Positions 19,503 to 49,260 of a stretch of DNA of 64,000 nt are shown here, piece by piece. The stretch is from Micromonospora sp. NBC_01796 (GTDB lineage: Bacteria; Actinomycetota; Actinomycetes; Mycobacteriales; Micromonosporaceae). The position numbers and the translations under genes are program-made. The stretch lies in assembly GCF_035917455.1 (NCBI RefSeq), contig NZ_CP109078.1, positions 2,418,001-2,482,000 of the forward strand. Reading direction: 5' to 3'. The first letter of the stretch is position 1. Each line of letters begins with the position of its first letter. The notes beneath the pieces were generated by a model that saw nothing but the letters and a program-made list of their open reading frames with translations, made no database searches and had not been told where the DNA came from.

Positions 19503-23162
<3,660 letters not shown>

Positions 23163-23168
23163 AGGCCA

Positions 23169-23188
23169 CCTCCGCTGTTCAACGGAGG
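23169..23188 (-). promoter_or_regulatory. RBS-sequestering hairpin of the metH riboswitch
   Basis: CCTCCG (23183-23188, minus strand) can pair with CGGAGG (23169-23174), which contains the ribosome binding site. Its first three bases are also the end of riboswitch stem P1, so the two pairings exclude each other. Confidence 0.7.
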
Positions 23189-23262
23189 CGCCCTTGCAGT
23201 CTGCGGTGAAGATCCGGGTCGAGCGTGGCGGGCGTCTTCGCCCGTTGCAGCGCCTCTCGACC
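23183..23262 (-). promoter_or_regulatory. S-adenosylhomocysteine (SAH) riboswitch
   Basis: Minus-strand leader of metH. The conserved SAH-riboswitch core AGGCGCTGCAACGGGC is present, then GCCCGCCACGCTCG. Pairings: P1 AGGCGC (23250-23255) with GCGCCT (23186-23191); P2 CGGGCG (23239-23244) with CGCCCG (23229-23234) over loop AAGA; pseudoknot GGTCGAG (23256-23262) with CTCGACC (23217-23223). This matches the known LL-type pseudoknot. Ligand binding would hold P1 and release the ribosome binding site, giving an ON switch, sensible for a gene that clears homocysteine derived from SAH. Confidence 0.85.
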
Positions 23263-23272
23263 TGAGAGATCC

Positions 23273-23278
23273 AGGGTA
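23273..23278 (-). promoter_or_regulatory. -10 element of metH promoter
   Basis: TACCCT on the minus strand, 10 bp before the riboswitch begins, so the aptamer would start near +1. The -35 region is weak. Confidence 0.4.
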
Positions 23279-47982: not shown

Positions 47983-49260
47983 TCACACCGCTGGTGCCAC
48001 CTTGGTCATCGCGTTGATCACCCGGTCCATCGCGTCCCCGCCGCGCGGGTCGGTCAGGTTGGCCAGCAGTTTCAGGACGAACCGCATCAGGGTCGGGTGC
48101 GGCATGCCGTGTTTGGTGGCGATCCGCATGATCTGCGGATTGCCGATGAGCTTCACGAAAATCCCGCCGAGCCGGTAGTAACCGCCGTAGCGGGCCTTCA
48201 ACTCGGCCGGGTAACCGGCCAGCGCCCGCTCCCGGTCGGGTCCCTCGGCGCGGGCCAGCGCCTGGACGATGACCTCGGCGGCGAGTTCGCCGGACTCCAT
48301 CGCGTACGCGATGCCCTCGCCGTTGAACGGGTTGACCATGCCACCGGAGTCGCCGACCAGCAGCACCCCGCGGGTGTAGTGCGGCACCCGGTTGAAGCCC
48401 ATCGGGAGGGCGGCCCCGAGGATCGGGCCCTCCGCGTTGGTCTCGTCGGTCATGCCCCACTCGGGCGGGGTGTTGGCCAACCAGTCCGTGAGCATCCGGC
48501 GGTAGTTGGTCTTGCCGAACGCGGACGACGAGTTCAGTACGCCGAGACCGACGTTGACCCGGCCGTCGCCCATGCCGAAGATCCAGCCGTAGCCGGGAAG
48601 CAGGTTGTCGCCGGAGTCCCGGCTGCGCAGTTCGAGCCACGACTCGAGATAGTTGTCGTCGTGTTTGGCCGGTGACTTGTAGTAGCGGCGTACCGCCACC
48701 CCGATCGGCCGGTCCTCGCGCTTGGCCAGGCCCATGGCGAGCGGCAGTCGACCGGAGACACCGTCGCCGGCCACGACCAGGGGGGCATGGAAGGTCACCG
48801 GTTCCTTGCCCGGTCCCGCCTCGCCGGTGACCCCGATCGCCCGGCCGGTCGCGTCCAGCACCGGCCCGGTGACGTTGATGCCCGTACGCAGCTCGGCTCC
48901 GGCACCGACCGCCTGCTTGGCGAGGAGGTCGTCGAAGTCCAGCCGGGTACGGACCAGGCCGTAGTTGGGGAAGCTGGCCAGGTCGGGCCAGTCGAGCTCC
49001 AGCCGCATCCCGCCGCCGATCACCCGCAGGCCGCGGTTGTGCAACCAGCCGGCCTCCGCGGAGGTGTCGACGCCGAGCCTGATGAGCTGCTTGACCGCGC
49101 GCGGGGTGAGGCCGTCGCCGCACACCTTCTCGCGCGGGAACTCGGTCTTCTCCAGTAGCAGGACCCGTAGTCCGTGCCGCGCCAGGTGGTAGGCGGTGGT
49201 GGAACCACCCGGTCCGGCGCCGACGACGATGACGTCCGCGTCGTACTCGACCGTGGCCAT
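47983..49260 (-). CDS. Geranylgeranyl reductase-family flavoprotein (menaquinone saturation)
   Basis: 425-residue FAD-dependent reductase. The dinucleotide fold is VIVVGAGPGGSTTAYHLARHG (split here after 20 residues as GAGPGG core), then FPREKVCGDGLTPRA, the family signature, and VGDSGGMVNPFNGEGIAYAM near the middle. Relatives reduce isoprenoid double bonds; the actinobacterial member MenJ saturates one unit of the menaquinone tail. Its place just before nuoA fits that role. ATG 49260 follows AAGGAGG. A Rex-like operator and iron box lie upstream. Confidence 0.9.
   Translation of the reverse strand: MATVEYDADVIVVGAGPGGSTTAYHLARHGLRVLLLEKTEFPREKVCGDGLTPRAVKQLIRLGVDTSAEAGWLHNRGLRVIGGGMRLELDWPDLASFPNYGLVRTRLDFDDLLAKQAVGAGAELRTGINVTGPVLDATGRAIGVTGEAGPGKEPVTFHAPLVVAGDGVSGRLPLAMGLAKREDRPIGVAVRRYYKSPAKHDDNYLESWLELRSRDSGDNLLPGYGWIFGMGDGRVNVGLGVLNSSSAFGKTNYRRMLTDWLANTPPEWGMTDETNAEGPILGAALPMGFNRVPHYTRGVLLVGDSGGMVNPFNGEGIAYAMESGELAAEVIVQALARAEGPDRERALAGYPAELKARYGGYYRLGGIFVKLIGNPQIMRIATKHGMPHPTLMRFVLKLLANLTDPRGGDAMDRVINAMTKVAPAV

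Follow-up and report, generated by a model that had tools for sequence, protein, structure and literature searches.

The minus-strand leader of metH in Micromonospora sp. NBC_01796 raises the question of whether it contains a riboswitch, and how such an element could act on the gene behind it. An earlier note on this DNA had assigned the leader to the SAH riboswitch class. We ran a covariance search with the Rfam models over the whole stretch of DNA analysed (64 kb, hereafter the window), and it upheld this assignment with a match to RF01057 (SAH riboswitch) at 23264-23179 on the minus strand, scoring 38.6 bits with an E-value of 0.0013 against all families. The score exceeds the gathering cut-off of 37 bits by just 1.6 bits; the alignment spans all 78 model positions without truncation, and RF01057 is the sole Rfam family above its gathering score in the window. 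The SAM/SAH riboswitch RF01727, which according to excerpts of PMC2864571 and PMC10907184 binds SAH, blocks the ribosome binding site (RBS) with a pseudoknot and is described as exclusive to Rhodobacterales, where it precedes metK, differs from the element found here: it gave no match above its cut-off anywhere in the window, the metH leader included.

The helices P1 and P2 and the pseudoknot P4 are all complete in the sequence and the Rfam alignment (Table 1), as they are in the RF01057 elements of Pseudomonas syringae and relatives, which likewise have a target in SAH recycling. All pairings listed in the earlier note are present, but their names had been exchanged, since the "pseudoknot" of 23256-23262 with 23217-23223 is P1 in Rfam. 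Taken together, the sequence evidence confirms that the metH leader carries a genuine SAH-type riboswitch aptamer.

Table 1. Features of the metH leader and of the second SAH riboswitch in the same genome.
Feature	Sequence or product	Position	Strand	Basis or remark
Likely -10 box	TACCCT	23273..23278	-	TANNNT, 10 bases before P1
P1 5' strand	GGUCGAG	23256..23262	-	Rfam alignment and sequence; "pseudoknot" of the earlier note
P4 pseudoknot 5' strand	AGGCGC	23250..23255	-	sequence and covariation
P2 5' strand	CGGGCG	23239..23244	-	Rfam alignment; covariation
P2 loop	AAGA	between CGGGCG and CGCCCG	-	sequence
P2 3' strand	CGCCCG	23229..23234	-	Rfam alignment; covariation
P1 3' strand	CUCGACC	23217..23223	-	Rfam alignment; covariation
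P4 pseudoknot 3' strand	GCGCCU	23186..23191	-	sequence and pair counts over loci
Anti-SD strand	CCUCCG	23183..23188	-	first three bases (CCU) also in P4
Shine-Dalgarno (SD) arm	CGGAGG	23169..23174	-	would pair with 23183-23188 in the OFF state
metH	cobalamin-dependent methionine synthase, 1219 aa	19503..23162	-	TIGR02082, NF007024
Second SAH riboswitch (L002)	before ahcY	G000:C1:6940231-6940305	+	outside the window; Rfam and R1

Because P4 is absent from the base pairs of the Rfam model, it provides evidence that is independent of the Rfam score. It differs by two compensatory changes from the Rfam consensus, in which P4 is GAGCGC/GCGCUC. We evaluated the three helices in an alignment of 24 actinobacterial sequences against 500 shuffles. 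In total, 98.4% of the P1, P2 and P4 cells are paired compared to 92.5% in shuffles, the covariation score is 0.256 compared to 0.145, and 32 cells are changed on both sides compared to 10.1; none of the 500 shuffles reached any of these three values. The number of pairs with double changes stands out little (6 vs 4.2, reached by 29 of 500 shuffles), and further pair types are not in excess (15 vs 14.2, reached by 200 of 500). By helix, 98.8% of cells are paired in P1, 96.4% in P2 and 100% in P4, with changes on both sides at 2 of 7, 3 of 6 and 1 of 6 pairs, respectively; the one in P4 is a C-G to U-A change, and four P4 pairs are invariant. In larger, overlapping sets, P4 is fully paired in all 104 distinct metH leaders, and 10 of 97 distinct ahcY leaders lack its first pair. 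Over 158 parsed loci, 23250/23191 is C-G in 156, U-G in one and U-A in one; the six loci, out of 164, that were not parsed have, by eye, U-A in four cases and U-G in the other two.

The core departs from the Rfam consensus at positions 23225 and 23193, which are C and G (CCA[C]GCUC and CAA[G]GG) in all 158 parsed loci in place of the consensus G and C. The exchange is possibly a compensatory swap, which would make the two positions a candidate tertiary pair. It could also be read as a sign that the aptamer recognises something other than SAH alone, whether SAM, SAM together with SAH, or a relative of SAH, whereas the rest of the core is as in RF01057 and the downstream genes are mostly metH and ahcY, followed by adenosine deaminase, that is, the SAH recycling route (metK was outside the reference set). 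We regard such a change of ligand as very improbable and retain SAH as the likely ligand; affinity data and a crystal structure (3NPQ) for SAH riboswitches are covered in an excerpt of PMC7057144.

In the window, the P4 3' strand runs directly into a full anti-SD CCUCC, which may set it apart from the proteobacterial elements. CCUCCG and CGGAGG form the central part of a hairpin of 10 pairs, two of which are G-U/U-G, and the ATG at 23162 lies six bases past GGAGG. The folding energy of the hairpin is -22.0 kcal/mol (z -5.2; none of 200 shuffles folds as well), compared to -10.0 kcal/mol for the six-pair P4 duplex alone, so that the OFF form is the expected rest state. The earlier note had given CCTCCG a dual role, in which it either hides the RBS or completes P1; the first half of this holds, but the other helix that involves CCUCC is P4 and not P1. 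CGGAGG occurs 70 times in the window (both strands), and CCTCCG lies within the 20 preceding bases in 2 of these 70 cases, both of which are the single metH-leader hairpin counted on each strand. For the shorter GGAGG/CCTCC combination, the count is 4 of 186 in the window, made up of the metH-leader site and one at 49057-49060. The anti-SD/SD pairing at the metH leader is not a chance occurrence.

The pair 23183/23174 lies outside both P4 and the GGAGG core. The set of 73 metH leaders contains 65 that match the pattern, and 60 of those are distinct; the pair forms in 58 of the 60 (G-C 38, C-G 16, G-U 4), compared to a mean of 34.9 in shuffles that ignore relatedness, with 0 of 20,000 as high. 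Enlarging the set by 38 listed named loci gave 111 metH leaders, 103 of them distinct, of which 93 match the pattern and 10 do not. Here the pair forms in 91 of the 93 (41 G-C, 40 C-G and 10 G-U), the exceptions being one C-A and one C-C. For 19 previously unused metH leaders, five of which duplicate an earlier segment, 18 match the pattern and all 18 pair (16 C-G, 1 G-C, 1 G-U). On a MetH tree of 101 leaders with duplicates kept, each side of the pair changes 13 times, and just 1 independent 23183/23174 pair falls on well supported branches.

Among the leaders outside the pattern, both arms change jointly, with CCUUCC facing GGAAGG, in L056, L100 and L201 and, by eye, in L044, L046, L055, L063 and L064. 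The pairing is retained via G-U in L099, L153 and L273 (by eye also in L038 and L047); in L153 and L273 (by eye L038 and L047), the anti-SD has changed to CCUUCC and is joined to an SD of the GGAGG type by G-U pairs only. The pairing register is shifted in L065 and L087, a different base follows the SD in L090 and L232, and L091 has a weaker anti-SD. For L087, the called metH start falls within the hairpin and must be doubted. In 77 of 102 distinct metH segments, the SD-side arm pairs with 9 or more of the first 10 bases of the P4 3' strand, and in the remaining 25 with fewer. The aptamer helices and the hairpin of anti-SD and SD both show compensatory changes in related leaders; together with the covariance match, these changes support the riboswitch class, the metH target and the RBS-masking switch that the note had proposed.

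Because CCU is common to P4 and the anti-SD strand, P4 and the anti-SD hairpin are mutually exclusive, an arrangement that would fit a ligand-ON switch. On an established aptamer that adjoins metH, and on two established pairings that exclude each other and are conserved with compensatory changes, we base the reading that this SAH riboswitch is very probably a translational ON switch for metH, for which we infer SAH as the ligand and ON as the direction. When SAH is absent, CCUCCG (23188-23183) would pair with the SD arm CGGAGG (23174-23169) and block ribosomes. When SAH accumulates, it would bind the aptamer and stabilise P4 (23255-23250 with 23191-23186), which presumably forms ahead of transcription of the SD. 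P4 would then take the CCU required by the anti-SD hairpin, leaving the hairpin unformed and the SD free, and MetH would be made and would convert into methionine the homocysteine that SAH gives rise to. A similar masking is known from P. syringae, where, according to an excerpt of PMC10992897, the start site is concealed without SAH and exposed with SAH; the ON direction proposed for metH would correspond to this. The metH leader may thus serve as a readable translational ON riboswitch and as a model for actinobacterial SAH control.

A hairpin at this position could alternatively act mainly on transcription, through intrinsic or Rho-aided termination, with translation as a secondary effect. 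In the ahcY leader of the same genome, the P4 strand does make a hairpin of 10 pairs with UUUUU behind it, and an mRNA whose translation is blocked can become exposed to Rho. However, none of 102 distinct metH segments has a U tail, compared to 27 of 80 for ahcY, which speaks against a terminator at metH, and the SD lies within the hairpin with the start codon immediately after it. The distance from the P4 3' strand to the metH start is at most 36 nt in all 70 leaders with a called start (73 leaders in the set). We consider a mainly transcriptional mode unlikely at metH and prefer masking of the SD.

The target named in the earlier note was correct: the gene directly behind the riboswitch encodes MetH, with 1548.8 bits for TIGR02082 (cut-off 1010.85) and 1858.1 bits for NF007024 (cut-off 1497). 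Reportedly, Wang et al. 2008 also studied a metH leader. In Comamonadaceae, metH is under a SAH riboswitch as well (PMC4239095), so the target gene is the same but the host is proteobacterial, unlike the one studied here; the expression platform is not described in the excerpt of that account. On the same strand, the preceding gene (24093-23350, minus) encodes a zinc-finger protein (zf-HC2) and ends 87 bases ahead of P1. All 71 distinct metH upstreams carry a TANNNT motif ending 5-11 nt ahead of P1, as do 120 of the 152 distinct upstreams overall, compared to a mononucleotide-shuffle mean of 6.7 of 152. The corresponding counts for the other targets are 33 of 60 for ahcY, 11 of 12 for ADA, 0 of 2 for MOSC and 5 of 7 for the remainder. 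From the placement of this box, the metH transcript probably starts at about P1, which would give a leader of about 100 nt. A match to sR32 inside metH (22.2 bits, cut-off 40) is below the cut-off and was taken as chance. The same genome encodes a second full-length MetH homologue that is 37% identical (G000:C1:7647490-7651002), and its fetched surroundings contain no SAH riboswitch match.

The earlier note had regarded the taxonomic setting as unusual, a view that did not survive the survey of related genomes. With the Rfam model, a match at E ≤ 0.001 is found in 131 of 354 Micromonosporaceae genomes (81 over the cut-off) and in 42 of 394 genomes of a class sample (20 over the cut-off). A lineage model, R1, that was built from 24 actinobacterial sequences including both copies of the window's genome matches 170 of the 354 family genomes at E ≤ 1e-4, weaker matches being counted as scored, and further actinobacterial families have matches too. 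The Rfam cut-off thus appears, on sequence comparison, to miss many actinobacterial SAH elements. A pattern derived from these leaders found 109 stretches in named genomes, all 109 of them actinobacterial; this pattern favours the actinobacterial form. A further pattern hit, at 436639 in genome G002, lies within an open coding frame, lacks the P2 stem and was dismissed as chance. The literature also places the class in actinobacteria, with SAH riboswitches in Mycobacteriaceae (PMC3766115) and similar SAH elements in actinobacteria (PMC10992897); class and phylum are the same as for the metH leader, and the excerpts of both papers are brief mentions that discuss no Micromonosporaceae leader. 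In class, phylum, target and logic, the metH-leader element is an added member of what is already known.

In the window's genome, the Rfam, R1 and pattern searches find the same two SAH riboswitch places only, before metH and before ahcY. Among three genomes of the genus, the ahcY copy is present in all three and the metH copy in two. In the other genus genome that keeps the metH copy, MetH is 93% identical to that of the window, and in G001, of the same genus, metH is 80% identical, its leader is without the SAH riboswitch and the ahcY copy is kept. The Rfam score just above the cut-off might suggest a decayed aptamer whose leftover hairpin merely sets a low, constant level of translation. 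Against this, all helices are intact, the metH-leader copy scores 76.7 bits with R1 (a model that contains this sequence), and one of the two other genus genomes retains the element; decay is thus very improbable, and we keep to the reading as an ON switch.

The ahcY copy scores 34.3 bits with the Rfam model, below the cut-off of 37, and 76.0 bits with R1, which contains it. Its leader reads GGGCGCCUCC-GAGCA-GGAGGUGCCC followed by UUUUU and folds into a 10-pair hairpin of -22.8 kcal/mol (z -4.8), with the ahcY start 132 nt beyond the 3' strand of P4. In sequence, this hairpin resembles an intrinsic terminator, and P4 would keep it from forming. A consensus terminator scan did not list it; our guess is that the scan extends the stem into A-U pairs and then counts too few Ts. 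The 80 distinct ahcY segments divide into 27 with the full arm and a T tail, 26 with the full arm but no tail and 27 that lack a full arm, and therefore no single platform holds for ahcY. A start is called in 20 of the 27 tailed segments, at 70 nt or more in six and at 32-34 nt in 14; in the latter, the T run immediately precedes the start, which would allow either output.

We lean towards the broader view, somewhat better than evenly balanced, that actinobacteria carry a lineage form of the SAH riboswitch whose P4 3' strand (GGGCGCCUCC) serves as a shared switch for two outputs in one genome, where it would mask the SD at metH (translation) and form the 5' arm of a terminator at ahcY (transcription), with one metabolite turning both on, and that in relatives the riboswitch acts on adenosine deaminase as well and, in rare cases, on MOSC, methyltransferase or HAD genes. 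If true, the SAH regulon would span homocysteine as well as adenosine, the two compounds that SAH cleavage yields. In actinobacteria, natural-product methylation makes the removal of SAH important, and metH and ahcY offer two expression platforms with the same aptamer and strand in one genome, which are directly comparable. The fresher points are the two-output strand and the adenosine deaminase targets: in the excerpts of the open-licence literature, neither a terminator at a SAH riboswitch nor the use of one SAH riboswitch strand in two platforms was met, and no open-licence paper joining the SAH riboswitch with adenosine deaminase was found.

Genes behind the riboswitch in relatives were classified by their similarity to a set of four reference proteins (MetH, AhcY, adenosine deaminase and MOSC; metK was not among them). 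Among 164 fetched family and class loci, 160 were placed, comprising 74 MetH, 63 AhcY, 12 adenosine deaminase, 2 MOSC and 9 unassigned; L038, L047, L055 and L064 were unplaced. Dropping L044, L046 and L063 for a misplaced core left 157 loci with 73 MetH, L063 having been among the 74. By eye, all seven of these loci (L038, L044, L046, L047, L055, L063 and L064) have metH-like frames behind them. The 109 named stretches, which are partly the same places, comprise 57 MetH, 46 AhcY, 2 adenosine deaminase, 1 MOSC and 3 unassigned. Pfam and NCBIfam confirm AhcY at L002 and adenosine deaminase at L035. Adenosine deaminase is likely a further target of the SAH riboswitch in relatives, to judge from loci such as L017, L033 and L035; a hairpin is predicted there, and the start lies at least 60 nt further in 9 of 12.

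In ahcY leaders of Actinomycetospora and Pseudonocardia (L165, L173, L200, L205), GGGCGCC is followed not by CCUCC but by GGGCGCCTGTGG or GGGCGCCTCAC, so that neither the anti-SD nor the terminator form fits. Rare copies precede MOSC-domain (L009, L098, L134, L072), methyltransferase (L124, L139, L164) and HAD (L120) genes; among the loci tested, Pfam identifies MOSC at L009 and L134, a methyltransferase at L124 and HAD at L120, and L098, L072, L139 and L164 were assigned by similarity or by eye.
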